Shown in pieces: positions 16,832 through 38,195 of a DNA stretch of 64,000 nucleotides. Source of the DNA: Rhodobacterales bacterium (GTDB taxonomy: Bacteria; Pseudomonadota; Alphaproteobacteria; Rhodobacterales; Rhodobacteraceae). Within the stretch, counting starts at the first letter, position 1. Each line of letters begins with the position of its first letter. The DNA is taken from positions 186,001-250,000 of the forward strand of contig PDRY01000013.1 in the NCBI GenBank assembly GCA_002748265.1. Reading direction: 5' to 3'. The notes beneath the pieces were generated by a model. That model ran no database searches. It saw only the letters and a list, made by a program, of their open reading frames with translations, and was not told the DNA's origin. A program made the position numbers and the translations under genes.

Positions 16832-16978
16832 AGCTGCCTCCTGTTGGCGCATTGCATAGCGGCTCTTGACCGGCGGGGCAAAGGGCCGAAAATGACGGCT
16901 GCGCGATGGCGTCGCGCCGCGATTCTCATATCCTTGTCCTGAACGCCGGGACCTTCTTTGCAAACAAGGAGGCCCCTC

Positions 16979-18181
16979 ATGGCCCGTCCCGATTTCCACC
17001 GCGTCCACAATGGCGAAAAGGCGCCGCTGCCTTTTGCAGTGGCCGAGTACGACCAGCGGCTGACCGGCCTGCGCGCGATCCTCAAGGCGCGCGGCCTGGA
17101 TGCGGCGGTGCTCACCTCGATGCACAATATCGCTTACTATTCGGGGTTTCTCTACTGCAGCTTTGGGCGCCCCTATGCGTGCGTTGTGACCGCGAGCGAT
17201 TGCGTAACCATCAGCGCCGGGATCGACGCTGGCCAGCCCTGGCGCCGGTCGGTCGGGGATAACATCACCTATACCGACTGGCAGCGCGACAACTACTGGC
17301 GCGCGGTCGCGTCGGTGGCAGGCACGGGCACTCGGATCGGCTACGAGGAAGACCACCTGACACTGGCCGGTCTGGATGCGCTGACCCATCACCTGGCACC
17401 CGCCGAAACCAAAGCCATCGCGGCAGACACCATGCGGCAGCGTATGGTGAAGAGCCCGGCCGAGATCGCCCTGATCCGCGAAGGCGCCCGCGTCGCGGAT
17501 GTCGGCGGCTATGCCATTCGCGAGGCCATCCGTGAGGGCACCCGTGAAATCGACGTGGCCATGGCCGGCCGTGACGCGATGGAGCTGGAAATCGCCCGCA
17601 GCTTCCCCGATGCGGAATATCGCGACACCTGGGTCTGGTTCCAATCCGCGCTCAATACCGATGGCGCGCACAACCCCGTCACAGGGCGCAAGCTGCAACA
17701 GGGCGACATCCTCAGCCTGAACACATTCCCCATGATTTCAGGCTACTACACGGCGCTTGAACGCACGCTTTTCCTGGGCGAACCCGATGACGCCTCGCGC
17801 CGTCTCTGGGAGGCTAATGTCGGTGCGCATGAGCTGGGGATTTCTCTGCTCAAGCCCGGCGCCACCTGCGCCGAGGTCACCGCCAAGATTAACGATTTCT
17901 TCGAAGAGCGCGACCTGCTCCAGTACCGGACCTTCGGGTATGGGCACTCCTTCGGTGTTCTCAGCCACTACTATGGCCGTGAGGCGGGACTTGAGTTGCG
18001 CGAGGATATCGACACCGAAATCACGCCGGGCATGGTCATCTCCATGGAGCCGATGCTCACCATACCCAATGGTATGCCGGGCGCGGGCGGCTACCGCGAA
18101 CATGACATCCTGCTCATCACCGAAGACGGGAACGAGAACCTGACCGGGTACCCCTACGGGCCGGAGCACAACATCCTGTAG
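16979..18181 (+). CDS. Creatinase (creatine amidinohydrolase)
   Basis: 400-residue pita-bread-fold enzyme hydrolysing creatine to sarcosine and urea. It closely follows the known creatinase pattern: SMHNIAYYSGFLYCSFGRPY near residue 45, ITYTDWQRDNYW near 95, TWVWFQSALNTDGAHNPVT near 215, FGYGHSFGVLSHYYGREAG near 315 and EPMLTIPNGMPGAGGYREHD near 355. The His in YGHSFG and the absence of the metal ligands of methionine aminopeptidases separate it from Xaa-Pro peptidases. AAGGAGG lies six bases before the ATG. It is divergent from recJ. Confidence 0.9.
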   Translation: MARPDFHRVHNGEKAPLPFAVAEYDQRLTGLRAILKARGLDAAVLTSMHNIAYYSGFLYCSFGRPYACVVTASDCVTISAGIDAGQPWRRSVGDNITYTDWQRDNYWRAVASVAGTGTRIGYEEDHLTLAGLDALTHHLAPAETKAIAADTMRQRMVKSPAEIALIREGARVADVGGYAIREAIREGTREIDVAMAGRDAMELEIARSFPDAEYRDTWVWFQSALNTDGAHNPVTGRKLQQGDILSLNTFPMISGYYTALERTLFLGEPDDASRRLWEANVGAHELGISLLKPGATCAEVTAKINDFFEERDLLQYRTFGYGHSFGVLSHYYGREAGLELREDIDTEITPGMVISMEPMLTIPNGMPGAGGYREHDILLITEDGNENLTGYPYGPEHNIL

Positions 18182-18255: not shown

Positions 18256-19332
18256 ATGTCCGACTTCAACGCCCAGATCACCCAATCGCAAAAGGACGTC
18301 GCCGACGCCCAGTCCAAGATCCGCGAGCTGACCGACCGGATCGAGATCGCCCGCCAGAAGATCGCAGATCACGAACCCGCCACGCTCGACATCGAAAACG
18401 CCACGCTCGACGAGGTTCACGCGCACACAGAGGCGATGAATGCGAATATTGCCGAACTGATCATGGGGCTGGACGACGTCACCGCAGGCTTCTCGAAAGA
18501 CTTCGACGACCTGCGCAGCAAAACCGCTTGGGAGGGGTTCGTCGGCATCTTCTCCAAGGGGCGCTCCGAATCCATGCGCCAGGAACGGCTCCGCGCCGCG
18601 AGCGTGGATGACAAGCTCCAGGACCTGATCGCCAAATCCGACACGATCACCCGCCTGCTTCAGGGGCAGCTCGACGTGCTGAACGATCAACGCGAAAAGG
18701 TGGACACCAACCTGCGCGGCACGCTCGAAGAGCGCGAAGAGGTCGTCGCCGCGCTTGCCCACACGAAGGACGAAATTGTCGGTATGGACCCCAAGATCAT
18801 TGCGTTGGAGCAGCAGATCGCCTCGGAAACCGACGCTGCGGCGCGCACCCGGCTGGAAACAGAACTGAGCGATCTCAACACCCGCTACAACGAATTGGTC
18901 CAGCAGGAGCAAGTGCAGCTCGCCCGGTCGCAAACCCTTGAACGCTATATCGAAAAGGGCAAGACATGGCTCGACAGCCTGCAAAACCAGGCGGCCACGC
19001 AAATGGTGCTGATCAACAAGCTGGAGACCGACACCAAGCAGCGCGTCGTGCTCTATGATGCGCTGACCAAATCGCTCAAGACCGCGCAACAGCAGGACGT
19101 CGCCCACCGCATCAACGAGATCGGCGTGAAGACGGATCAGGAAGCACAAAGCGCCATGGCCGGGATCGGCGCCGCCACCAACAAGCGGATGGCGGACATG
19201 CTGGAGGCCCATGAGGATCACATGGTTTTCGCCCGCGACGTGCTGGAACAGAAAGCCAAAGCGGATGAGCGTTTCGCCCGCCGTTTCGAAGAGATCGTGC
19301 GCAAACACGACAGCAACGCCTATGGCGGCTAA
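18256..19332 (+). CDS. Coiled-coil protein, first gene of the AAA+ ATPase cluster (possibly TelA-like)
   Basis: 358-residue soluble, strongly helical protein rich in Gln, Glu, Lys and Asp, predicted to form long coiled coils (ITQSQKDVADAQSKIRELTD; LEERE; ALEQQIASETDAAARTRLET). The C-terminal half (QTLERYIEKGKTWLDSL ... INKLETDTKQRVVLYDALT) loosely recalls the toxic-anion-resistance TelA family, but I cannot confirm this. There is no signal peptide or membrane segment. The ATG at 18256 has CGGAG about ten bases upstream. It heads a run of seven same-strand genes and may be the scaffold or adaptor of the ATPase. Confidence 0.65.
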   Translation: MSDFNAQITQSQKDVADAQSKIRELTDRIEIARQKIADHEPATLDIENATLDEVHAHTEAMNANIAELIMGLDDVTAGFSKDFDDLRSKTAWEGFVGIFSKGRSESMRQERLRAASVDDKLQDLIAKSDTITRLLQGQLDVLNDQREKVDTNLRGTLEEREEVVAALAHTKDEIVGMDPKIIALEQQIASETDAAARTRLETELSDLNTRYNELVQQEQVQLARSQTLERYIEKGKTWLDSLQNQAATQMVLINKLETDTKQRVVLYDALTKSLKTAQQQDVAHRINEIGVKTDQEAQSAMAGIGAATNKRMADMLEAHEDHMVFARDVLEQKAKADERFARRFEEIVRKHDSNAYGG

Positions 19333-19335
19333 CCG

Positions 19336-19393
19336 CTTCTTATTTGTCCAAATACCTCGGGGGATCCCCGTCAGGGGCGGGGGCAGCGCCCCC
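19336..19393 (-). repeat. Dispersed intergenic double-hairpin element, copy A
   Basis: Read on the minus strand: a GGGGGC-GCT-GCCCCC hairpin (19379-19393), a CCCC-rich linker, then AGGTATTTG-GA-CAAATAAGAAG, whose TATTTG/CAAATA arms form a second hairpin. It fills most of the gap between the first two genes of the AAA+ cluster. Related copies are at 24990, 54283, 58085 and 62017. Confidence 0.75.
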
Positions 19394-19410
19394 ATCCCCG
19401 CCTGCCGCTC

Positions 19411-20523
19411 ATGACCGAACTCGATCACTTCGCCCTCCAGGACCTGCGCGTCACCCGCCGCTACTTCGCCAAGTTTGAGGCGATCACCGGCCATCTGGCC
19501 CGGGTGGCCGCCTTGTTGCAGGCTGAACGGCGGCTGGATCGCGAGGAGGTCGCGATCCTCGCGCGCTACATTGCCGGGCTGACCTATTCCTTCCGCGCGT
19601 TGGGGTGGAAATACCTCTTCGCGGGGCGCTCGGCCCGGGCGGGTCGCCTGACCCTGGACCGGACAGAAAGCGGCTTCCCGGTGTTCTCCGAACTCATGAC
19701 CCTTGCCAACGACGCGGCGCAGGCCAAGGGGCATCTGGCGGGGATGGACAGCACCGAAGGGCTGAAACGGCGGATGGTCGAAGCGATCCTGTCGCAGCAC
19801 CGTGTCCCGACAGAGCTGCAATTCGCCCTCTCGCAACGGCTCTACTACGAGGAGCTGGAGCGTGGTCAGCTGTTCTGGGCCCGCAACGATGCCGAAGCCC
19901 AGTGGCTCGGCACCACCGAAGACGGGCGCCGACGGTTCCGGATCCATTGGGCGGCCTATGACAGCCAGGTGAACCTTCCACAGATCTACCTGATGGAGAT
20001 CGAGGATAGCGGCCGGATACCTCTGCCCAAGGACGATCGCCGCTGGCCCGAACTGCGCGCCCATTTGGCGGCGCAGGCGGTGGCGGGGCTCAAGCTGCTC
20101 ACCATCGCGCGCGGGATTGATGAGGATTTCGACGATCTGCACCCAAAGCGGCTCCGCCGGTTCCATATCGGCCCGATGTATTCATCGGCTTTCACCCGCC
20201 AAAGCGGCCCGCTGCACGATGTGCTGGAGGCCGCCCGCGCGCCCGAGGGTGAGGACTGGGCGCTCGCTTGGACCGAAGAGGATCTGCGCTCGGAGCGGGT
20301 CGATCAGGCCAAATCGGGGTGGTTCGGCAAAGTGGATCGGGAGATCTTCGCGCTTGATCCTTTCGCGGGCGGCCTCAGCGATCCGGGCGCCAGCCGGGTG
20401 GAGCGGCGGGTGATCCTGCCGCAGCGGGTGGTGCAGGCTCTGGTCGAGGCCGCGCCTGCCGGCTTTGCTGATGTGGTCAAACATGTGGTCAGCCCCGGTG
20501 GGCGCGTCCTGACGATGAGGTAG
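19411..20523 (+). CDS. Unknown soluble protein, second gene of the AAA+ cluster
   Basis: 370-residue protein with no membrane segment, signal or family motif that I recognise. The N-terminal 80 residues are helical (RYFAKFEAITGHLARVAALLQ ends a short head). A charged middle region follows (FWARNDAEAQWLG; IHWAAYDSQVNLPQIYLMEIED), then a C-terminal part ending VVKHVVSPGGRVLTMR. The ATG has no clear ribosome-binding site, because repeat copy A lies just upstream; translation may depend on the preceding gene or on an internal start. It ends four bases before the ATPase gene. Confidence 0.6.
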   Translation: MTELDHFALQDLRVTRRYFAKFEAITGHLARVAALLQAERRLDREEVAILARYIAGLTYSFRALGWKYLFAGRSARAGRLTLDRTESGFPVFSELMTLANDAAQAKGHLAGMDSTEGLKRRMVEAILSQHRVPTELQFALSQRLYYEELERGQLFWARNDAEAQWLGTTEDGRRRFRIHWAAYDSQVNLPQIYLMEIEDSGRIPLPKDDRRWPELRAHLAAQAVAGLKLLTIARGIDEDFDDLHPKRLRRFHIGPMYSSAFTRQSGPLHDVLEAARAPEGEDWALAWTEEDLRSERVDQAKSGWFGKVDREIFALDPFAGGLSDPGASRVERRVILPQRVVQALVEAAPAGFADVVKHVVSPGGRVLTMR

Positions 20524-20526
20524 GCG

Positions 20527-22434
20527 ATGGAAAGCAGTGGCCAGTTGATCGAGATCGCAGAAAGCGACATCCGCGCGCAGTATCCAGCGGCGCTTGCCTT
20601 GCTTGAGGGCTTCGATCACGCCCCGCGCCATGGCCGCAGCGAGGCGCAGGGCACAGAGCGCGATGGGCTTCCCAACCGGCGCCGGTTCCGCTCCACCACG
20701 CCGGGCCTGATGACCCAAGGGGCGAAGGCGCCGGTGCGCCTGTTGCGCCGGATCGAGGAGCTTAGCGAAGATGCCCTGACGACACCTGCCCAGGCGCGGG
20801 GGCAAACGGCCCTGCGCCGTGCACTCGCCGTGGCCAGGGCCGTGGCAGAGCAGGAGGCCAAGATCTCCGGGCTTGCCGAAATGCGTGCTCAGAACGCGCA
20901 AAACCGCCTGCCAGAGGCGGCGCACTTGCAGTTTTCCAACCTCATGCAGGCTGAATCGCTCATCACGCTTCAGGTCTTTGCGCTGACCCTTCGGCATGTG
21001 CTGCCCGATGGTGACGCCCTTGATCTGGGCACGCCGGAGGAAGTCTTGCTCGACAATGGCGCGACGGCCCTGCGCGGAGCCCTGTGGGAGCTGGATCAGA
21101 CGCTGGCCCGGCACGCGACAAGTGACGCGCGGCTTGCCCCTGCGGTCCGCGCCTATGCCGAGGGCTTGCTGGAAACCCTGGCCCTGCGGAGTGATCGCGA
21201 GGGGTTGAGCCATTTCAAAGGCACGGCCTACCGGATCGAAGACGACGATCTGACCATTGAGGGCTTTGCCCCGCCGCGCGGGCGCAAGGGCCCGGCGCTC
21301 ACGATGCAGTTCAAGAAACCGCATGAGGTGGTCGGCAATCACATCGCCAAGCGTCAGGCGCAGCGCCTGGCCAAGATGCTCATGGCTTATGATTTCGACC
21401 GTCGCCTGAACCCGTTCGCCGAACTGGGCGGCTTCATCTTCACCTTCATGGGCGATGGCAAGCCGGGCACGGGCAAGACCACCCTGATCCAGATGATGGC
21501 CGGGCTGATCCACGGCTATTGCGAGGTCGCGGGCTACACTTTCCGTTATGCGAACCTGTCGACCGAAAGCATCGACAGCTATCAGGGCAAATCCGCCCAG
21601 AACGCCAAGAGCTTCATCAACCAGATCATTGACCCGTCGGTGATTGGTTTCGGCACCATTGACGATATCGACCAACTCGCTGGGAAGCGCGGCGACCGGC
21701 AATCGAGCGCGGGCCAGTTGGAGATCACCGCCGTTCTGATGGAGAGCTTTGCCGGTGCCAACACCGTGGTGCGGGGGAACTGCACCTTTGGGATGTTCTC
21801 CAACTACCCCGAAGCGGTCGACGACGCGCTGCGCCAGCGGGCGGGGGCGCGGTTCCTGGTCGATGGCCCGCAAAGCGAGGCGGATTACATCGACATCCTG
21901 CACCTTCTGATGGGCAAGCATCATGATATCCCCTTGGGCGATCACGACCTTTACGCTGCGCAGGCACTTAAGAAGGCCGTCGCGCGCAGCTATGAAGCCC
22001 ATGCGCGGCCTCATGATGAGACTCTGGCCAATGTCTTTGACAAGGTCGTCGCACAGTACGGGCCCCTGTCCACGATTACGGAGCTGGGGCGTTATCTGAA
22101 GGCGATCCAACAAGAGGACGAGCGCTTCACCGGGCGCGCGATCAAGAACATCACCGACGCGGTGAAAACCCGCGCCATGGATTTCGAGCTGCCCGACGAT
22201 TGGATGGCGCAGCCCGATCTGTTCCTGCGCCAGGATTATGACACCAAGAAAGCCATGATCGCGGATCTGCGCCAGCCGGTCACGCCCGAGATGGTCCTGC
22301 AAGAGATCAACCGCTACGCCGACAGCGAATTCCGTTATGCGGGCAAGAGCGATGAGGCGGCCATTGATGAGGCCGTCCGCGACATGCGCCGCATGGAAGA
22401 GGCCAAGCGCCGCTACCTGGAGGGGCGCGAATGA
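20527..22434 (+). CDS. AAA+ family ATPase, core of an uncharacterised cluster
   Basis: 635-residue protein. The first 290 residues are a helical domain of unknown type. The AAA+ module follows with Walker A GKPGTGKTT (residues 311-319), Walker B VIGFGTIDDID (372-382, paired Asp), a sensor-1-like MFSNYPE with Asn 426, and DDALRQRAGARF with candidate Arg fingers near 436-441. After the lid there is a Gln/Asp-rich C-terminal tail. The type suggests MoxR-like or disaggregase-like remodelling more than helicase or protease work; that is inference. It overlaps the next gene by four bases (ATGA). Confidence 0.82.
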   Translation: MESSGQLIEIAESDIRAQYPAALALLEGFDHAPRHGRSEAQGTERDGLPNRRRFRSTTPGLMTQGAKAPVRLLRRIEELSEDALTTPAQARGQTALRRALAVARAVAEQEAKISGLAEMRAQNAQNRLPEAAHLQFSNLMQAESLITLQVFALTLRHVLPDGDALDLGTPEEVLLDNGATALRGALWELDQTLARHATSDARLAPAVRAYAEGLLETLALRSDREGLSHFKGTAYRIEDDDLTIEGFAPPRGRKGPALTMQFKKPHEVVGNHIAKRQAQRLAKMLMAYDFDRRLNPFAELGGFIFTFMGDGKPGTGKTTLIQMMAGLIHGYCEVAGYTFRYANLSTESIDSYQGKSAQNAKSFINQIIDPSVIGFGTIDDIDQLAGKRGDRQSSAGQLEITAVLMESFAGANTVVRGNCTFGMFSNYPEAVDDALRQRAGARFLVDGPQSEADYIDILHLLMGKHHDIPLGDHDLYAAQALKKAVARSYEAHARPHDETLANVFDKVVAQYGPLSTITELGRYLKAIQQEDERFTGRAIKNITDAVKTRAMDFELPDDWMAQPDLFLRQDYDTKKAMIADLRQPVTPEMVLQEINRYADSEFRYAGKSDEAAIDEAVRDMRRMEEAKRRYLEGRE

Positions 22435-22751
22435 TCGGCGCGCTTCTTGTTCTGATCCTTGCGGGTGGCGTCTATACCGCCCTGCGCGTGCTGACGCCTG
22501 TGGCGGAAAATCACGGACGGAAGGTCGCGGCGGGGCGTTTCGCGGCCTCTCACTCGGCATGGCAGCTTGTCGCAATCCTGTCGGTCACGGTTCTGCCGCT
22601 GTGCGTGATTGCAGGCTGGGCGTTCGCGGAGTCGGGGCAGGGGATCGCGGCAGGGCTGGTCCTGTTCGCGATGACAGGCGGGATCATCGCGCTCGCCCTG
22701 CACCGTCGCTTCAAGGCCGCGCGTGCCGGTCACAAGGGGGGGCAGTGGTGA
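22431..22751 (+). CDS. Small three-helix membrane protein of the AAA+ cluster
   Basis: 106 residues with three hydrophobic segments at about 2-20, 44-66 and 72-92, separated by a short charged stretch (AENHGRKVAAGRF), and a basic C-terminus (HRRFKAARAGHKGG). I do not recognise the family. The ATG overlaps the end of the ATPase gene and the TGA overlaps the next GTG, so it is translationally coupled on both sides and probably anchors or partners the ATPase at the inner membrane. Confidence 0.65.
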   Translation: MIGALLVLILAGGVYTALRVLTPVAENHGRKVAAGRFAASHSAWQLVAILSVTVLPLCVIAGWAFAESGQGIAAGLVLFAMTGGIIALALHRRFKAARAGHKGGQW

Positions 22752-24049
22752 GACGCCTGATCGAAAAGGGCCTGATGTTCGGAAACCTTGTTGCCGTCCA
22801 TTCTCCAACGCTGATCGAGCGCTACAACCGCGCGCTTGAGCACCTCGTGGGGCGCCGCACGGCGCTGAGCGATTTCCACATAGATCTGTCCGGCCATTCG
22901 CCCGAGATCGCGGATGAGCTGGGCGATCCGCTCTATCTGAACCCGCGCGGTGTGAACCGGCAGTTCATCCTGCTGACCCCCGAGCAGCGCCATGCGCCGC
23001 TCCTGGAGGAGCGGTTTTCGACCTCGCGCGGGCTGCTGACGCGGTTCATTGACGAGAATCTCGCCGCGCTTTTTGCGCTGACCGCGCAAGATGCTGTAGC
23101 CGGTGAATTGGTCAACTCGGTCTACGATGCGCAAACGCCCGCGCGCCTGCTCGATCTGCGGCGGCTTCGGGTCGAAGCCGACACCGTGAGCGGCACGGTC
23201 GCCACGGCGGCTCACCTGAGCGATCTGGTGGAACGCTTTCAGAGTGAACCCCGCGCCTGGTTCGATGACGTCCTGATCGGGCAGATGATCGGGCTGGCCA
23301 AGGAAACGGGCGACATCCTCCGCCACCCTGTCGCGCTCGACGCAGTGGAGAGCGACCAGGAGGATTTCTGGACCGGGATGTATGGGGGGCTCTACCTGTT
23401 TCGCAGTCCTACGGCGTCTGCGGTGATACACGCCGGGGATGATCCCGGCGCGCTTCCCGTCGATCACGTGATCCCTATGACGGACCGTCTGGCCGTGGCG
23501 CGCTACCTGAGCGCGCAGGGCCTAGTCGAGCCGATCATCGAGGCGCGCGGGATGGATGCCGCGCGGGTGCTGGCCGGGAAAATGGAGATGATCGTAGCCC
23601 ATGTCGCGGCCTCTGCCGGGGAACAGCCGAACCACGATCCGCGCCAGATGCGCCGCCTGGCCCGGCGCTATGCGGATCGTCTGCCCGAGGCCTGGCACGG
23701 GCTTGCCAAACTGTGGCGGTGGGCTGCGGAAGGCGGCACCTGGCCGGTGATCAGCGCGGACGATGAGGCCTATTTCTACACCCTGCGGGCCGCGCCCGGT
23801 CCGACCCAGGATCAGGTGAACCGGCTGCTTGCGGAACTGTGCCCGCTTGATGTGCTCCAGCTTTTCATTTGCCACAAACAGGCGTTCTATGACGCCTATC
23901 GCGGCTGGTCGGATCCGAAACGCGCGTTTGTCGCGGAGTATCTGGAGCATGCCTATCTAGAGAATAAAGAGGCGGTGCGCGACGCCCTGTTTGGATCGCT
24001 TGCGCCGCCCGCGCCAGAGCCTGCGCGCCCGTCAGGGCCCTGGGGCTGA
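22748..24049 (+). CDS. Unknown soluble protein, fifth gene of the AAA+ cluster
   Basis: 433-residue protein with no membrane segment and no motif I can name. Sections include MFGNLVAVHSPTLIERYNRA, LTPEQRHAPLLEERF, a central FWTGMYGGLYLFRSP, VDHVIPMTDRLAVARYL and the C-terminal LLAELCPLDVLQLFICHKQ. A Pro/Ala tail ends it. The GTG at 22748 is chosen because it overlaps the previous stop (GTGA); the frame is open further upstream but inside the previous two genes. Function is unknown; linkage to the ATPase is the only clue. Confidence 0.65.
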   Translation: MRRLIEKGLMFGNLVAVHSPTLIERYNRALEHLVGRRTALSDFHIDLSGHSPEIADELGDPLYLNPRGVNRQFILLTPEQRHAPLLEERFSTSRGLLTRFIDENLAALFALTAQDAVAGELVNSVYDAQTPARLLDLRRLRVEADTVSGTVATAAHLSDLVERFQSEPRAWFDDVLIGQMIGLAKETGDILRHPVALDAVESDQEDFWTGMYGGLYLFRSPTASAVIHAGDDPGALPVDHVIPMTDRLAVARYLSAQGLVEPIIEARGMDAARVLAGKMEMIVAHVAASAGEQPNHDPRQMRRLARRYADRLPEAWHGLAKLWRWAAEGGTWPVISADDEAYFYTLRAAPGPTQDQVNRLLAELCPLDVLQLFICHKQAFYDAYRGWSDPKRAFVAEYLEHAYLENKEAVRDALFGSLAPPAPEPARPSGPWG

Positions 24050-24062
24050 AGGAGAAGGTCGG

Positions 24063-24326
24063 ATGTTCGCATTTCTCAGATTTGCCGTGCCGCTGCTGAT
24101 CGCGCTGTCGGTGCTGTTTCTCGCCGTTTCGCTGTGGTCGCGGTTTAGGCGGGCCCGAAAGCTGCGCGCGCAATGGGCACAGGATCCGCAGGGCGATCGC
24201 GACGATTTCGTGCGGGAAGGCCTGCGGGACTACGATGACAGCCTGCGCGCCAAGCTGATCTGGGGGGTGTATATCGTGCCGATTTGTGTCATTGCCGTCA
24301 TGGTTTACGCCGCCAACTTCCTGTGA
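24063..24326 (+). CDS. Small two-helix membrane protein of the AAA+ cluster
   Basis: 87 residues: hydrophobic helix at about 3-22 (FLRFAVPLLIALSVLFLAVS), a charged, mostly acidic/basic middle (FRRARKLRAQWAQDPQGDR), and a second helix at about 66-85 (LIWGVYIVPICVIAVMVYAA). This fits an inner-membrane hairpin with a cytoplasmic loop of about 40 residues. GGAGAAGG lies six bases before the ATG. The family is not recognised. Confidence 0.65.
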   Translation: MFAFLRFAVPLLIALSVLFLAVSLWSRFRRARKLRAQWAQDPQGDRDDFVREGLRDYDDSLRAKLIWGVYIVPICVIAVMVYAANFL

Positions 24327-24335
24327 GGATCGACA

Positions 24336-24956
24336 ATGGTTTTCTATCTGCGATGGGCTTTCTGGCTGACGGTCTTTGTGCTGTTTGGCGCGTTCTTGCA
24401 CTACACCTTGCCGCAGTGGGACGTGGTGCGGGTGTCGGACACCTATGAAAAGCGTGTCGACCCGGGAGAAAACCGCTGGTTCTGGGCGCAGGCGGATGTC
24501 GGGAATGATCTGACCCAGACGACCCGCGATGTGTTCTTCATCCAGACGATCCGTCCCAATAACCGGCCTATGGTCTATCGCAACGAAGACACCGGCTGGG
24601 GCTGGCCGCCTTACTTCAAGTTCGACACGTCGAACCTTCAGGCGGAAGCGGCGGATGCGAAATCACAGGCCGGGGACGGGGAAAAGTGGTTTGCCATCAA
24701 ACACTATGGCTGGCGGATCGAGATTATGTCCGTGTTCCCCAACGCTGTGAAGATCAAACCCGTGAGCGGACCTGACGCGCGGGTGATCCCGTGGGTGTCG
24801 ATTGCCTTGCTGATCCTGATCGCGATGGTGGTCTGGGGCATTACGTCTCGGTGGCTGCGGTTCAAGCGTCGCCGGATTTCCCCGACGCTGGATCGGATGG
24901 ATGCGGCGGTGGACAGCTGGTGGCTCAAGCTGCGCGGGAAAGAGCCGAAGGTCTGA
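24336..24956 (+). CDS. DUF1523 family membrane protein
   Basis: 206 residues with an N-terminal membrane helix (about 4-25), a domain of about 120 residues with FWAQADVGND, TRDVFFIQTIRP and YRNEDTGWGWPPYFKFD, and a second helix at about 147-170 followed by a basic cytoplasmic tail. These segments match the DUF1523 family, known from Rhodobacterales and without assigned function. The domain between the helices is probably periplasmic. It is the last gene of the seven-gene run, nine bases after its neighbour. Confidence 0.75.
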   Translation: MVFYLRWAFWLTVFVLFGAFLHYTLPQWDVVRVSDTYEKRVDPGENRWFWAQADVGNDLTQTTRDVFFIQTIRPNNRPMVYRNEDTGWGWPPYFKFDTSNLQAEAADAKSQAGDGEKWFAIKHYGWRIEIMSVFPNAVKIKPVSGPDARVIPWVSIALLILIAMVVWGITSRWLRFKRRRISPTLDRMDAAVDSWWLKLRGKEPKV

Positions 24957-25056: not shown

Positions 25057-27378
25057 TTACGCGCCGTAGGGGATCCAGAGCGTCTGGCGATCCGTTGCGG
25101 CTTCGATGAAGGCGTCGCTTTGTGCGGTGCCCCAATCCCACTGACGGGCATTGTTCACCCATGTGCGCTTCAGGTTCCCCGCTGCGCGCCGCTCGATCTC
25201 GGCGGAGAGGTCGGTGGAGGAGAAGCTCCAGACCGCGTCAAGCGCGAGGTGATCGGCCAGGGTCGGGGCCAGTTCCGCATGGGAGCCGGTGAGGATGTTC
25301 ACCGTGCCAGCGGGGATGTCCGAGGTCTCTATCACCTGGATCAGGTCGGTGGCGGCCAGCGGGTAGGGCTCGGATGCGACGAGCACCGCGCGGTTGCCCA
25401 TAGCCAGAAGCGCGCCGATCACCGAGGTCAGCCCCAACAGCGGGCTGTCATCGGGGCTCAGGACGCCCACGATCCCCGTGGGGCGCCGCATCGACAGGGC
25501 AACGCCGCGGATGGGCACGCCCTTCACGGCGCCGTCGGCCTTGTCGGCCCAGGCGGCCCAAGTGAACAGGCGGTCAATGCTGGCGGCAACGTCTTTCGCG
25601 CCGTCCTTGCCGGTCATCGCCTTGATACGGCTTGCGAATTCTGCTTCGCGCGCGGCGAGGTTCTCGGCCAGATAGTACAGGATCTGAGCGCGCGCATGGC
25701 CGGTCGTGTTGGCCCAGCCGCTGGCGGCCTGAGCCGCTTCGACCGCGTTGCGCACATCTTTCCGGCTGGCGATCGAAACCTGACCAAGCGCCTTGCCCTT
25801 GGGGCCGAAGACCTGCGCGCTGTAGCCGCCATCGGGGCGGGCCTGTTTGCCCCCAATGTAGAGCTTGGCGGTGCGGTCAATCGGATCGGGCGCGGCGCCA
25901 TCGCCAGTCAGCGGTGTGATCTGTGCCAGGGCTTTGCCGGGGCGGGTCGGAACGGTGTAGGCGAGGCAGCCTTCGGTGCCACCTTCGCGGCCAAAACCGC
26001 TTTCGCGCAGACCGCCAAAGGGGGCGGCGGCGTCGAACATGTTGGCACCGTTGATCCAGATGACCCCGGCTTCGATCTTTGGGGCGACATCGAGCGCGGT
26101 GTTGATGTTTTCCGACCAGACCGATCCGGCCAGCCCGTAGCGGGTGTTGTTGGCCAGTTGCACCGCCTCTGCCGGGGTGCGGAAGGTGGTGGACACCAGC
26201 ACCGGGCCAAAGATTTCCTCCTGCATCAGCGGATGCGCGGAGGAGAGCCCTTCGATCAGCGTGGGCGGATAGAAGCAGCCGTCGGGCGCGCCGATCTGGT
26301 GGCAGGTGCCCTCAGAGCAGTCCGCGACCATCTGCGCCACGCGGGCCCGATGGGCCGGGTCAGCCAGAGCACCGACATCGACGCTCTTGTCCAGCGGATC
26401 ACCGACGCGCAGCCGCTCCATCCGGGCGCGGAGCTTGGCGTGGAAGCGCTCCGAGATCCCTTCCTGCACCAGCAGCCGGGTTCCGGCGCAGCAAACCTGC
26501 CCGCCATTGAACCAGACCGCGTCCACCAGCCCCTCGACGGCGCTGTCCAGATCTGCGTCCTCGAACACGATATAGGGCGATTTCCCCCCCAGCTCGAGCG
26601 TCAGCCCAATGCCGCGCCCCGCCGTGGCTTCGCGGATGCGGCGGCCCACGGCGGTGGAGCCGGTGAAGGCCAGCTTGTCGATATCTGCGGCGGTGATCAT
26701 CTCTCCGACCGCACCATCGCCGGTGACGATATTAACCACGCCCTTGGGCAGCCCGGCCTGCTGACACAGATCGGCAAAGGCGAGCGCGGTGAGCGGGGTC
26801 CATTCGGCGGGCTTGAGCACCACCGTGTTGCCCATGGCGAGCGCGGGGGCGATCTTCCAGGCCAGCATCAGAAGCGGGAAGTTCCACGGCACGATCTGGC
26901 CACAGACCCCGGCGGCGCGGCGGCCCGGAACCAATTCCTCCTGAAGCTGGGCGAGCCCGGCATGGTGGTAGAAATGGCGCGCGGCCAGCGGAATATCGGC
27001 ATCGCGGGCTTCGCGGATGGGTTTGCCGCTGTCGAGGGTCTCCAGCACCGCCAGCAGCCGGGCGTGTTTCTGGATCAGGCGGGCAAGCGCATAGAGGTGG
27101 CGGGCACGGGCGGGGCCGCCCAGTTGCTCCCACGGGCCTTGGGCCTTGCGCGCGGCGGCCATGGCGGCGTCCACATCCGCCTGGCTGGCCTGAGTGACCT
27201 GCGCCAGAACATCCCCGGTGGCGGGGTTGGCTGTATCGAACAGCTCTCCGGCGGGGGTGAAGGCGCCGTCGATGAAATGGCCGAACGGCGCGCGAGCGGC
27301 GATCCAGTCCAGAGCCTCTGTCGCGCTTTCGGGGGCGGTTCCGTAGTCCATGGTTTCGAAAATGTCCTTGATGGTCAT
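25057..27378 (-). CDS. Two-domain aldehyde dehydrogenase, ALDH16-like
   Basis: 773 residues. The N-terminal half is a complete [24 protein letters not shown] near residue 165, [11 protein letters not shown] near 240, [16 protein letters not shown] near 260 with the general-base Glu, and [15 protein letters not shown] near 293 with the catalytic Cys. From about residue 500 a second ALDH-like domain begins ([33 protein letters not shown]) but stops before any Glu or Cys active-site motif. This arrangement is that of the ALDH16 family. Beside deoC it probably oxidises the acetaldehyde that DeoC releases. Confidence 0.85.
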
Positions 27379-33046: not shown

Positions 33047-36000
33047 TCAGAATTCGTCCCATTCCGCTTCTTCTTCTTCGGTCAGATCGAGAGCGGTGTT
33101 GCCGTGAACCGGTGCCTTGCTGGGCACTGGCCGCGGCGCCGATTGCGCGGGGCGGGGTGCGGGCGGGGCCTTGCTCTTCGAGATGTCGAATTGCGAGACA
33201 AGCCGTGCCAGTTGCTCAGCCTCCTGGGTCATAGAATGGCTCGCCGCAGTGGACTCCTCCACCATCGCGGCATTTTGTTGTGTAACCTGGTCGATCTGGT
33301 TGACCGCCGCATTGATCTCGCCGATGCCCACCGACTGCTCGCGCGCGGTGTTGGCAATATCCTCTACGAGCGCCGATATCGACGTCACGGAGCTCAGGAT
33401 GTCTCGAAGCGCCGTGCCGGTTTGCCCAACCAATTCAACGCCTGATCCGACCTGTTCAGACGACGTTGAAATCAGGGCTTTGATCTCCTTCGCTGCTTCT
33501 GAGGAGCGTTGCGCCAATGCGCGGACTTCCGAAGCGACCACGGCGAAACCGCGACCCGCATCACCTGCCCGTGCCGCCTCGACCCCGGCATTCAGGGCCA
33601 GAAGGTTGGTTTGGAAGGCGATGTCGTCGATCACGCCAATGATCTGAGAAATTTGCCGCGAAGAGTTTTCGATGGCGCTCATTGCAGAGATTGCGTCATC
33701 GACGACCGACCCGCTTGCTTCTGCGTTGGAGCGTGCTTCCATGACATTCCTATTTGCTTTTTCTGCACCGTCGGCTGCGGATTTGACGCTTGCAGTCAAT
33801 TCCTCAAGTGACGCCGAGGTTTGTTCAAGCGTGGCGGCCTGGTTCTCTGTCCGTCTGGACAGGTCATCTGCAGCCCGAGCGATCTCGCTTGCTTCGTTCC
33901 GGATACCTCCGGTGTTTTCAACCACGGCTGCGATGGCCTCTTCTAGCCGCCGCGTTGCGGTGTTGAAGTCCATCCGAAGCTGGTCGTAGCTGGCGCCAAA
34001 GGGCTCCTTGATCTGCACCGATAGGTCTCCGTCGGCCAGGCGGGTGAGGCCTTTGCGCATTTCATCAACGACATGAGTTTGCATCTCAGCCATGGCAGCA
34101 TTTTGTTGTTCCTGGGTGATGCGCCGTTCTTCAGAGTCTGTAACGTCGGCAACACAGGCGATGACCTTGAAAACTTCGCCATCCCGATTCAGAACCGGTG
34201 TGCTCGCACCTTGGAGGTGAATCGTTTCGCCGGTTGTCGTCTTGAACAGGTAGACCTGTGCATCGAACTGCGCCGCGGATATTTTCTCCTGCATTTCTCT
34301 GTAGGCTGGGCCGTTGGCAAAATTCTCATCCAGAATGCTTGCGAGCGGGCGGCCGATGAGATCCTCAGCGGAACACCCCATCAAGCTGCAGAAGTTGTCA
34401 TTCGCGGCCAGAATGGCCCCTTTGGCGTCCATCTCGAAGACAGCTTGAGCGCGACCAATCGCATCCAAGACAGCTTTTCTGTCGAAGGCGAGGGTTTCCA
34501 GCTGTGTGACGTCTGAAGCGTATTTAACGACTGTGTAGGGGTGCCCTGACGCATCGCGGATTGGATTGTAGGCGGCTTCGAGCCACACTTCGCGGCCATC
34601 TTTTGCGACGCGTCTGAACTTCCCGGCCAGCTGCTCGCCACTCCGCAGTCTTGGCCAGAAGGTGCCGTAGTCGGCGCTGGTGCGCTCGTCCTTGGGGACG
34701 AAGGCCGAATGATGCATGCCTACGATTTCTGTCGCGGTGTAACCCATCGTCTTCAGAAAGTTTTCGTTTGCTGTCAGAACGTTGCCTTGGAGGTCGAACT
34801 GGATGGTTGCGTTATGCTCTTCGATCGCCCCGACCAATCCTTCGGTCAGCCGTGCGGCTGTCACATCTTGAGCTTCGAGCAGGTAGCTTACCGGTTGTTC
34901 GTCCGTGTGCGAGACGGGGCTCAGGCGCAGCTCAAGATTCTTGTTACCAACCAGGAACTCTGTCTTTGCTGTGTCTCGTTGAGCGGCTCTCATAAGCTCC
35001 GCAATCAGATCGGACGATTGGAAGAGAGTGTTGAGATCGCTCGTCAGCGGCGTGTTTGCTCGATCCGGCATCGCGCCATCCATGGGGTTATCGGCGACCG
35101 ACTCGGCAAGTTCGATGAATGCGGGGTTTGTGCTCAAGACGCGGCGGTCAGCGTCAATGATCGCGAGAGGGATCGTGCTTGCATTGATGAGGCTATCTGC
35201 ATTTGGAGCAGATCCTTCCGTATCCTTCGATTGAGCGGCCTCCAACTCGGTCAGAATGTCGGAGATCGCTACGATATCCGTGTCACCGGAGGTCTGAACA
35301 CCGGGGCGCACCATGTTCGCATACGCGCTGAATCGTCGACCAAAAACCGAGATGGGGCGTAGTGTTCGGATCACGACCACGACGCCCGCGAGCGAGATCA
35401 GAGCTGCAGCGGCCGCGCTGAAAAGACCGAACCGTGACCAGTCAGTCGTGGCGGGGGCGGTCAGCGAGTGTGAGGGGCCCACAGTGATCAAGGACAACGT
35501 TTTCTCGCCAATGCGCACCTGCTGCTTTGAGCGCAGTAGCGGATCAGCGGTCGGCAAAAAGGCAGAGCTACCGGTCTGCGCAACCGTGGTTCCGCCGCCG
35601 TCCTGGAGCAGAAACTGCGATCCGATTGCCTCGTTGGGGAGCAGCGCATCAAGCGGTTCGCTGGCCACTAGAATGTCGGCGCCAAAGAGGAGCTCGCTTG
35701 GCATGGGGGCTGCGTAGACGACTCGTCCCGCAGTCAGAGCAATTGTCGTCTCGCCCGCCTTGGGCGAGACAGCGGCAATAGACTGCCATTCGCCGTCAGA
35801 AATACCGCTCCCGACTAGGGGCGTACGGGACTGATCGGCCGAGACGATAGCGGCGGAGGTATATCCTGCTTCGGTCAAGGAGCGCGCCGTGTCGGCGGCG
35901 AGAGCCGACGCCAACACACTATTCTTCGCGGCGGCGAGCCGTGCTTCGAAGAGGCTTGCGGCGAAGGCACCTTCGAGCGCCACAGCTTGCACGCTGTGGC

Positions 36001-36124
36001 GCTCGTTGCTGGCGTTGATCGCGCGAATTCCGGCGAAAGAGGCGATCACTGCCGCGAGCGTAATCCCCGCGACAAACATTGCGGCAATCCGCACGGGCAG
36101 TTGGCGAATTGAAAGACTGCTCAT
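33047..36124 (-). CDS. Methyl-accepting chemotaxis protein with three PAS domains
   Basis: 1025 residues. A membrane helix at about 10-32, a periplasmic region to about 230, and a second helix ([20 protein letters not shown], 233-252) are followed by PAS-like segments at about 311-420, 430-545 ([20 protein letters not shown]) and 555-665 ([18 protein letters not shown]). A HAMP-like stretch precedes the signalling domain, whose tip is [20 protein letters not shown]. The last five residues EWDEF resemble the NWETF-type CheR/CheB tether. It could sense redox or cytoplasmic ligands through PAS. Base composition looks less GC-rich than the neighbours. Confidence 0.93.
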
Positions 36125-36139
36125 GTCACTGTCTCCGGT

Positions 36140-36472
36140 CTAAAATAATTCGATATCTGCGGACGCCTGTTCTTCTTCGCGTCGCAGCAGCCTGTCGCGC
36201 ATGTGAATGGGGCGCAGAGCTTCTAGTCGTGAGGCCAAACTGGCGGGGCATTCTTGGTGACGGGGCGCCGCGAGCCGCAGGGCGTCTGCCACGAGCGCCA
36301 CTGACTGCGTAATGCTGTCCAGCTCTTGGAGCTGGCCAAGGTCCTGATCCGTGCGCGCGCAGCCGGGGTCTCCAACGGCGGTCTGAATGGATGTTAGATG
36401 CGTCGCGACTCGCTGCAGCTCATCGGCGCAAAGCCCGGCCAGTCTCTTGGTGTCCATTAGTGTCTTACTCAT
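36140..36472 (-). CDS. Small CheZ/CheT-like protein with DxxxQ motif
   Basis: 110-residue helical protein. A helix LQELDSITQSVALVADALR contains D52-S-I-T-Q56, the DxxxQ signature of CheZ-type CheY phosphatases (DLTGQ in enteric CheZ). The acidic, hydrophobic C-terminus EEEQASADIELF resembles the CheY-binding tail of CheZ. Its ATG overlaps the stop of the cheY immediately upstream (ATGA). The protein is much shorter than CheZ (about 214), more like alphaproteobacterial CheT. Function is inferred from motif and position; no search was possible. Confidence 0.6.
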   Translation of the reverse strand: MSKTLMDTKRLAGLCADELQRVATHLTSIQTAVGDPGCARTDQDLGQLQELDSITQSVALVADALRLAAPRHQECPASLASRLEALRPIHMRDRLLRREEEQASADIELF

Positions 36473-36858
36473 CCAAGGGGGCCCGTGACACGCTCAATAC
36501 AGGCCTTTAGTGCAGCTGCATCGAAAGGTTTCTTGAGGTAGTTGTTCATGCCCAACGCCTGGCCCTTGCGCAGGACATCTGCGTTCTCAGAGCCAGTGAC
36601 CAATATGAAGCCGATTTTCTGCGTGGCGGGGTGCTGACGGAGGCGCTCCAGCAGCTGAAGACCATCCATGTTGGGCATATTGTAGTCCGAGATGATCAGA
36701 TGAACGGGATTGGACGAAAGCGACCGAAGGGCCCCCTCACCGTCGGTGGCATAGCTGAGATGGGAGATGCCGATCTCTTCAAGGGCCTGCTCCAGCAGAC
36801 CTCGGCTGACCGACATGTCATCCACGACCATGATACGAATCTGCTTTTTTAATGACAT
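36469..36858 (-). CDS. cheY: CheY-type response regulator (second copy)
   Basis: 129-residue single receiver domain. The acid pocket is in IMVVDDMSVSRG (Asp 13-14), the phospho-acceptor Asp 58 in LIISDYNMPNMDGLQLL, the Thr in FILVTGSEN and the Lys in YLKKPFDAAAL. It is probably a flagellar-motor-binding CheY or a phosphate sink. It overlaps the small CheZ-like gene downstream and lies ten bases after cheR. Confidence 0.95.
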   Translation of the reverse strand: MSLKKQIRIMVVDDMSVSRGLLEQALEEIGISHLSYATDGEGALRSLSSNPVHLIISDYNMPNMDGLQLLERLRQHPATQKIGFILVTGSENADVLRKGQALGMNNYLKKPFDAAALKACIERVTGPLG

Positions 36859-36867
36859 GTCGTTTGC

Positions 36868-37725
36868 CTATGCGTGGTTGGGTGCGGTTTTGCGGTAGGT
36901 CGTGACGCCGTCCAGCGACAGGCCGATCCGCTCCGCCTCGTGGATCCGTTCGGAGTGACCGATCATGATGTGGCCGCCTGGTAGCAAAGCGTCAGTCATC
37001 CGGCGCCAGATCTGCGCCTCATCAGGCTTATTGAAGTAAATGACCACATTCCGGCACATGATCAGGTCGAACTGACGCTTCATTGGCCATTTCTGATGTA
37101 AGTTGAGCCTATTGAATGTGATGATTTTCCGTATGTCGTCGATCATGCGGATCTGGTTGTTCCCCGCGTCCTCGAAGAAGGCTTTGAGGCGGCTTCCGTC
37201 CTCATCGAGCAGCGCTTCTCTTGAGTAGAGCCCGCGCCTCGCTACGCTGAGAATTTGCGGGTCAATGTCGGTTCCGAGGATGCGAAGGTCCAGGTTGCGC
37301 AGCTCCGGGGCGCGGGACAGCAGCGTCATCGCCAGAGAGTAGGGTTCTTCGCCGCTTGAACACGCCGCAGACCAGATGCGCACCGCGCCACCACTGCGAA
37401 GCTTGGAAAGCATTTCGGGTAGAAGACGCTCCGCGAGATCATCGAAATGATGCCGTTCTCGGAAAAATTTTGTGACATTCGTCGTGAGGGCGGAAAGCAA
37501 CTCCATCCGCTCGCCGTCTGCGGCGTCCGCTTCGACGAGGTCACAGTAGGCGGAATAGCTGTTCAACGCCAACGCGCGTAGCCGCTTTGAAAGCCTCGCT
37601 TGGACAAGCGACGCCTTACCATCCGGCAGTTCTATGCCAGCCTCGCGTCTTAACACTACGGCAATCCTGGCAAGGTCTGAAGCAGAGAGCGTCGGATTGC
37701 TGTCGGTCGGATTGTGGAGAGTCAT
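36868..37725 (-). CDS. cheR: CheR, chemoreceptor methyltransferase
   Basis: 285 residues. The N-terminal helical domain (LRREAGIELPDGKASLVQAR) and the SAM-binding domain are both present: VRIWSAACSSGEEPYSLAM near residue 115, LRILGTDIDPQILSVARRG near 148 and FDLIMCRNVVIYFNKPDEA near 220. It methylates receptor Glu residues with SAM. The start overlaps the cheW stop by one base. Confidence 0.97.
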   Translation of the reverse strand: MTLHNPTDSNPTLSASDLARIAVVLRREAGIELPDGKASLVQARLSKRLRALALNSYSAYCDLVEADAADGERMELLSALTTNVTKFFRERHHFDDLAERLLPEMLSKLRSGGAVRIWSAACSSGEEPYSLAMTLLSRAPELRNLDLRILGTDIDPQILSVARRGLYSREALLDEDGSRLKAFFEDAGNNQIRMIDDIRKIITFNRLNLHQKWPMKRQFDLIMCRNVVIYFNKPDEAQIWRRMTDALLPGGHIMIGHSERIHEAERIGLSLDGVTTYRKTAPNHA

Positions 37726-38195
37726 CAGGCGGCCACCTCTCGAGGTGTCGGGGCGACTTGACCCAGGTCCACAAGCCGGATCATGCGTCCGTCATCCGAT
37801 GCGATGACTTTTGCGACGAAGGCGCGCGTGGGATCCGCGCCTACGTCGGGCGTGGGCTGAAGTGCGCTGCTCGACACTGACAGGATATCAGAGACGCCGT
37901 CGACTAGTAGGCCAACACTTTGGTCATCGATCTGAACGACGATAATGACATGACGAGGGGTCGTGACCGTCCTGTCAAAGCCAAATCGGAGTGACAGATC
38001 GAGGATAGGTATGACGGTGCCGCGGAGGTTAATCAGCCCGCTGATATAATCCGGGGTGCGCGGCATGGGGGTGGTGGGCGACCATCCCCGTATCTCGCGG
38101 ACGGCTGCGATATCGATGCAGAAGTCCTGATCGGCAAGGCGAAAGGCGACATATTCGCGGATCGTCGGGTCTTCGTCCAGAGTTGGCTCGGTCAT
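37725..38195 (-). CDS. cheW: CheW, chemotaxis coupling protein
   Basis: 156 residues with the CheW fold: YVAFRLADQDFCIDIAAVRE, TPDYISGLINLRGTVIPILD near residue 55 and VGLLVDGVSDILSVS near 105. It links receptors to CheA. The ATG overlaps the cheA stop by four bases. Confidence 0.95.
   Translation of the reverse strand: MTEPTLDEDPTIREYVAFRLADQDFCIDIAAVREIRGWSPTTPMPRTPDYISGLINLRGTVIPILDLSLRFGFDRTVTTPRHVIIVVQIDDQSVGLLVDGVSDILSVSSSALQPTPDVGADPTRAFVAKVIASDDGRMIRLVDLGQVAPTPREVAA

Follow-up and report, generated by a model that had tools for sequence, protein, structure and literature searches.

We analyzed a seven-gene operon (g1 to g7, positions 18256 to 24956) in a 64,000-nucleotide (nt) stretch of the genome of a Rhodobacterales bacterium of the family Rhodobacteraceae (GenBank assembly GCA_002748265.1, contig PDRY01000013.1, positions 186,001 to 250,000), hereafter the window. 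The operon consists of three layers: a four-gene AAA+ core (g1, g2, g3, and g5), a membrane pair (g6 and g7), and a hypervariable slot between g3 and g5, occupied in the window by g4. The order g1-g2-g3-(slot)-g5-g6-g7 recurs in relatives far beyond chance. We tentatively interpret the locus as encoding a membrane-proximal AAA+ remodeling machine with an exchangeable partner, perhaps with a role in biological conflict or envelope stress.

Gene order and the four-gene core

The seven genes lie on the plus strand, and the start/stop overlaps that the original prediction had placed around the ATPase gene (ATGA at g3/g4 and GTGA at g4/g5) were confirmed, as were all seven open reading frames (ORFs). 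The core comprises g1 (18256 to 19332), which encodes a predicted all-helical rod or coiled-coil protein of 358 amino acids (aa); g2 (19411 to 20523), encoding a soluble mixed alpha/beta protein of 370 aa; g3 (20527 to 22434), encoding a classical AAA+ ATPase of 635 aa; and, as the fourth member, g5 (22748 to 24049), a GTG-initiated gene for a 433-aa DUF6638 protein (PF20343). A simple hydropathy scan detected no hydrophobic segments in these four proteins. At E values of ≤1, the Pfam scan returned nothing above a family cutoff for g1, g2, g4, and g6.

The six genes other than g4 were consecutive and in the same order in 17 of 19 loci from relatives. In one of the two exceptions, L033, the contig starts within g3. 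In L037, g5-g6-g7 are present, the 8 kilobases (kb) upstream hold other genes, and a partial AAA gene lies on another contig, an arrangement that may reflect rearrangement or faulty assembly. Named genomes contributed 80 loci (the best 80 of at least 415 relatives), and 65 of these hold all six genes, invariably in order and on one strand. Nine of the 15 incomplete loci were judged by reading to be at or near a contig edge, and g6 was undetected in L127, L132, and L138 (in L132, g1 as well). L088 and L101 carry g1-g2-g3 without g5, g6, and g7, and L090 carries g3 alone, with breaks away from the contig edge; these three loci and L037 are possibly rearranged or misassembled copies.

The system extends beyond the family. 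Of 61 genomes, 20 encoded DUF6638, comprising 20 of the 37 from the same family and 0 of the 24 others. The AAA protein had relatives in 5 of the 289 genomes in a class-level sample and in 26 of the 398 in a phylum-level sample. Ten records of a plasmid collection also carried an AAA relative (4 Sinorhizobium, 4 Vibrio, 1 Shinella, and 1 Rhizobium). In L165 to L174, which belong to one other family, presumably Rhizobiaceae from their likeness to the Sinorhizobium meliloti locus, g1, g2, g3, and g5 were detected in 10 of 10 loci, and g6 and g7 were undetected. Two of three Vibrio loci were aligned as homologues of g1, g2, g3, and g5. In the three Vibrio megaplasmid records examined (L176, L177, and L179; Vibrio parahaemolyticus and Vibrio vulnificus; 0.88 to 0.94 Mb), the core immediately precedes an mfd gene carried on the plasmid.

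The hypervariable slot and its occupants

The slot occupant in the window, g4 (22431 to 22751, plus strand), encodes a 106-aa protein with three hydrophobic segments, in agreement with its earlier description as a three-helix membrane protein. The 197 other family genomes searched yielded no homologue at E values of ≤0.001 (1 of 198, its own), and g4 clusters with no other slot occupant (cargo). The original prediction that all seven genes travel together as one unit was therefore not borne out: g4 was found in only one genome, DUF1523 (g7) is common without the core, and the six genes other than g4 separate into the core and the membrane pair.

Slots were compared in 103 loci, including the window. 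These were taken from 114 (the window, 19, 80, and 14) after 10 without both g3 and g5 and one duplicate (L084, identical to L026) were dropped; only identical slots were removed, and near-identical strains, or one genome under two labels, may remain. The slot was at least 200 nt long in 79 of the 103 loci. An ORF of at least 60 codons began at an exact 4-nt overlap with the AAA stop codon in 47 of the 79; in 65, an ORF ended no more than 12 nt from the start of g5, and both ends were coupled in 40. To judge by these junctions, the hypervariable slot is often translationally coupled to its neighbors. Mean GC content was 0.538 for the cargo versus 0.600 for the adjacent core and was lower in the cargo at 65 of 79 loci (Wilcoxon P = 2e-10).

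The slot turned over faster than its flanks. For locus pairs with AAA identities of ≥0.93, homologous ORFs were found in the slot in 15 of 126 pairs, versus 104 of 132 in the upstream 3 kb and 119 of 121 in the downstream 3 kb; the same genomes, chiefly of Ruegeria, recur among these pairs, which are not independent of one another. Junctions longer than 250 nt, in counts that include one duplicate, numbered 0 of 85 at g5-g6, 0 of 85 at g6-g7, 7 of 110 at g2-g3, and 38 of 108 at g1-g2. The last of these is a second variable site: some of its gaps (e.g., in L061, L063, L067, L072, and L075) contain small, low-GC, variable membrane ORFs, some of which overlap the g1 stop codon by 4 nt.

Eighty-six cargo ORFs were collected, excluding eight judged noncoding by eye, ORFs shorter than 80 aa, and L026 (the same as L084); g4 and one L033 ORF were added to this set. 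The 86 ORFs encode 82 to 345 aa, and several loci carry two or three of them. At least one hydrophobic segment was predicted in 66 and none in 20. By a tally made by reading, 11 ORFs matched Pfam at 1e-3: DUF559 seven times and Mrr (L075), AbiJ_NTD4 (L068), DUF2971 (L094), and HATPase (L102, under the curated cutoff) once each. No integrase families were among these matches. PADLOC models assigned PDC-S37 to four ORFs, Hhe to four (which may be coiled-coil cross-hits), and PDC-S31 to that of L094; L102 gave a partial DrmA match and L119 weak CARF/HEPN matches. For the window, the original prediction that no defense effector is present was upheld; in some relatives, however, defense-type domains occur in the position of g4. 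In the S. meliloti record (L178, 10965 to 15422), an endonuclease-domain gene and an ISRm16 transposase gene lie between g3 and g5, and a gene for a DUF2333 protein follows g5, where g6/g7 would stand.

Recurrent cargo groups included a 3TM family (16 ORFs, the largest), a GDTLAG two-helix plus coil family (8 ORFs), and smaller ones. In 120 family genomes, the GDTLAG profile, which was built from slot members and is biased toward slot matches, gave two strong matches, both in the slot. For the A17 family, three of five matches were in the slot, one was elsewhere in the operon-bearing genome G691, and one was on the DUF1523 contig of G719, in which AAA was not found; two of the three slot matches are self-matches, as the profile contained proteins of these genomes. 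The 3TM family was detected in 23 of the 120 genomes, 12 with and 11 without the AAA gene, and 4 of the 12 are self-matches, as the profile (A16) contained g4 and proteins of three other operon genomes. Among the 11 genomes without AAA, 10 were inspected, and in all 10 the 3TM gene lies upstream of g6 or g7. On this basis, 3TM is probably a component of the membrane module that other cargo has displaced in many of the genomes bearing the core.

The membrane pair and the conserved proteins

The membrane pair consists of g6 (24063 to 24326; 87 aa) and g7 (24336 to 24956; 206 aa), both on the plus strand and each encoding a protein with two hydrophobic segments, as had been predicted for g6. The earlier assignment of g7 to DUF1523 (PF07509) was upheld by Pfam (E = 1.1e-66; 224 bits versus a cutoff of 23); g7 also matched a PHROG named secreted protein (2.8e-4). 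DUF1523 occurred in 106 of 120 family genomes, in single copy in all but one. The AAA gene, always in single copy, was present in 50 and was not found in 70. All 50 of the former genomes also carried DUF1523, on the same contig within approximately 5 kb in 45 and on a different contig in 5.

We inspected 30 of the 56 DUF1523-positive loci from genomes without an AAA match. There, g7 was present in 30 and g6 in 19; g1, g2, g3, and g5 were present in none, and no core remnants were detectable at E values of ≤0.01 in any of the 30. One such locus, L214, retains the neighbors seen in the window, where an M24-peptidase-like gene (16958 to 18181, plus strand) lies upstream and an aldehyde-dehydrogenase-like gene (25057 to 27378, minus strand), followed by a DeoC-like gene, lies downstream; the window neighbors were assigned by eye rather than by a family scan. 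Mapped on a 115-row g7 tree, the distribution of the core required 22 gains or losses, at least 14 of them forced by well-supported branches. Shuffled distributions required a mean of 26.7 changes, and 4 to 5 of 500 shuffles were as low as 22. Core presence is patchy on this tree yet not random; recombination may disturb the topology, and the AAA-negative rows were chosen rather than drawn at random. Elsewhere in the window, the lowest GC content (0.58 to 0.59, versus 0.60 to 0.69 in most other 2-kb blocks) is at 34001 to 38000, a possible foreign segment.

The ATPase g3 belongs to Pfam AAA (PF00004; E = 2.8e-12; 47.6 bits versus a cutoff of 21.2). Its motifs, named by inspection, were compared in two partly overlapping alignments of 18 sequences each, a family set and a wider set with Vibrio. 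The Walker A Lys (K317, in GDGKPGTGKTT), the sensor-1 Asn (N426), and the candidate arginine fingers R438 and R442 were invariant in both sets, as were D379, D380, and D382 (18 of 18 in each). The original description of intact AAA+ motifs stands for Walker A and sensor 1 but needs correction for Walker B, which reads IDDID, with Asp in place of the usual catalytic Glu (hhhhDE). This replacement is conservative and alone does not exclude ATPase activity. A wide g3 profile matched the i-AAA protease, VCP, Rpt subunits, and katanin in PDB (best E = 5.3e-5); a narrower profile gave no match to a solved structure at 1e-3. Matches to the PADLOC TRIP13 model (5.8e-9, residues 310 to 494) and to a clamp loader in PHROGs (3.4e-7) look like generic cross-hits from a shared AAA fold. 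CBASS systems with TRIP13 are defined by HORMA and CD-NTase proteins that accompany the TRIP13-type ATPase. Neither model was among the matches of the other six proteins in Pfam and defense-model scans.

The most conserved member is g1 (70 to 76% identity to 17 relatives; mean column identity, 83%). Its matches to the Lamassu LmuB model (1.3e-6) and to a type II restriction endonuclease model (1.1e-4) look like coiled-coil cross-hits. The AlphaFold2 model of g2 is confident (pLDDT, 93), with no recognized fold. DUF6638 in g5 was supported by 588 bits versus a cutoff of 27 (E = 1.3e-176), and our literature search found no paper naming this family. Membership of g5 and g7 in their families is established by hidden Markov models (HMMs); neither family name tells a role in the operon.

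A proposed remodeling machine with an exchangeable partner and its alternatives

Two known designs come nearest to the operon. MoxR-vWA ternary and related nucleoside triphosphate-dependent conflict systems are described as having an AAA+ core, a strict gene order, and interchangeable effectors, fused or adjacent (PMC7159879). The operon is like these in its AAA+ core, strict order, and exchangeable element. It differs in that the ATPase is a classical AAA protein and not MoxR (no MoxR-type match at E values of ≤1; the Pfam matches of g3 were AAA [PF00004], ABC_tran, and AAA_19), none of the seven proteins matched vWA at E values of ≤1, and the variable element has a gene of its own, placed between two core genes and for the most part lacking known domains. 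The other design is that of PSP systems (PMC11237479), which pair PspA or Snf7 with AAA+ ATPases, including Vps4-like ones. Like this arrangement of the ESCRT-III type, the operon combines a helical partner, a classical AAA ATPase, and membrane proteins; unlike it, g1 shows no PspA similarity above shuffled controls, and g2, g5, and the variable slot are additional. Defining features of both designs (a MoxR-type ATPase and a vWA partner for the first, a PspA_IM30 or Snf7 domain for the second) were looked for and not found. Genomic-island hotspots (e.g., PMC12629846) also hold variable cargo between conserved borders and can include defense genes. Here, by contrast, one operon encloses the cargo, which in most cases comprises one or two genes, frequently joined to the neighbors by start/stop overlaps, and which lacks integrase families among its Pfam matches, although the S. 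meliloti slot does contain an insertion sequence transposase.

In the mechanism that we envisage, g3 would assemble into a ring driven by ATP, in the manner of classical AAA proteins, and would remodel or take apart an inner-membrane assembly built from the long helical g1. Genomic context suggests that g1 may be the main structural client or scaffold of g3 at the membrane, that g2 and g5 may serve as substrate or regulatory adaptors, and that g6/g7 may make up the membrane component. The protein from the slot, in this case g4, is presumably produced in concert with g3 and g5 and would be an exchangeable client, sensor, or effector. The slot gene is exchangeable; its product may act as an effector. 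The original prediction of a membrane-associated remodeling machine was half right: the classical AAA+ ATPase, the rod-like helical partner, and the inner-membrane proteins make it a fair inference, but g4 is a local slot occupant rather than a constant component of a machine with seven parts.

Several observations weigh against this interpretation. The slot was shorter than 200 nt in 24 of 103 loci (in 7, g3 and g5 overlap directly by 4 nt and the slot is empty), and therefore the core persists without cargo. No Pfam match was obtained at 1e-3 for 75 of the 86 cargo ORFs, and the defense-type domains, a minority of the cargo, were counted without a background rate from ordinary accessory genes. 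The GDTLAG profile, even with its bias toward the slot, gave two weak matches in AAA-negative genomes. Cargo identity exceeded AAA identity in 0 of 174 homologous cargo pairs, and these pairs give no sign of recent swapping between the sampled lineages; the cargo therefore came from outside the sample or diverged fast. The g1-g2 junction is likewise variable (homologous in 9 of 102 close pairs), and the window locus is set among metabolic-looking genes. Finally, g1 is modeled as a helical rod of generic type that matches no structure specifically, and an hhalign comparison of g1 with 26 PspA rows (3.6%) fell inside the range of 8 shuffles. ClyA-type alpha-pore-forming proteins were also considered as candidates for sharing the fold of g1. 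An ESCRT-III-like polymer is therefore only an analogy; g1 also had no PspA_IM30 or Snf7 match at E values of ≤1.

The strongest alternative, possible but in our view somewhat unlikely, is a housekeeping envelope-stress or membrane-repair machine with PspA/Snf7-like logic, in which the slot is merely a tolerant site whose passengers use the operon promoter and translational coupling. The near-frozen g1, the conserved flanks at close AAA identity, the association with g6/g7, and the AAA+ pairing with PspA/Snf7 in PSP systems (PMC11237479) agree with this. Passengers, however, would need neither coupling at both ends (40 of 79 loci) nor a family such as GDTLAG with strong matches only in the slot, and a housekeeping gene sits poorly with the 70 of 120 genomes in which AAA was not found. 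An arms race, be it with phages, mobile elements, or competitors, fits better than housekeeping because the slot turns over fast while the core is near-frozen. We nevertheless regard as rather doubtful the specific proposal of a modular conflict system of a new class, in which an AAA+ docking machine (g1, g2, g3, and DUF6638), lying next to a near-universal membrane pair, would arm itself with an interchangeable, translationally coupled effector gene.

An anti-phage or anti-plasmid system with the slot protein as an effector under control of the AAA core is unlikely. It would account for the Mrr nuclease, AbiJ_NTD4, DUF2971/PDC-S31, DUF559, partial DrmA, and weak HEPN matches of the cargo, for the rapid slot turnover, for the patchy core with its forced changes on the g7 tree, and for the LmuB and TRIP13 matches. 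Those last matches look generic, however, the cargo domains are the minority noted above, the core is strongly conserved, and 0 relatives of the AAA protein were found among viral contigs. It is less probable still that a single fast-evolving membrane subunit fills the slot, its copies having diverged past recognition. The prevalence of hydrophobic segments (66 of 86 ORFs) and the 16-member 3TM cluster are compatible with this idea; the size range, the unrelated named domains, and the loci with two or three ORFs argue against it, and for the soluble occupants (20 ORFs lack a hydrophobic segment) it is already contradicted.

TelA proteins are helical, and the faint TelA likeness of g1 in the original prediction had hinted at toxic-anion (tellurite) resistance. 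The lengths are similar and g1 is predicted to be all-helical, but g1 had no HMM match to TelA (PF05816) at E values of ≤1, the sole TelA match of the genome is a separate gene on another contig (C28), and hhalign gave probabilities of 0.2% and 0.9% when the alignments were smaller (one shuffle also reached the second value) and of 10.6% with the widest profile, which exceeds 8 of 8 block-shuffled controls and is far from significance; we consider a TelA-like operon scarcely credible.

Whichever interpretation applies, DUF6638 and DUF1523 gain a genomic context, not a function. DUF1523, named in only four papers in our literature search, may be a membrane protein that matters generally across the family. 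Even with passive cargo, a hypervariable site within a coupled operon with conserved flanks merits explanation. If the locus is a conflict system, related species would keep the machine and change the weapon, and the slot would read out defense or competition proteins. If the remodeling machine with an exchangeable partner that we favor is right, a widespread bacterial family has an AAA+ core that is as yet undescribed and that receives a different partner gene in different species, and reading the slot would offer a direct route to new effectors and a test of how one ATPase serves unrelated clients.

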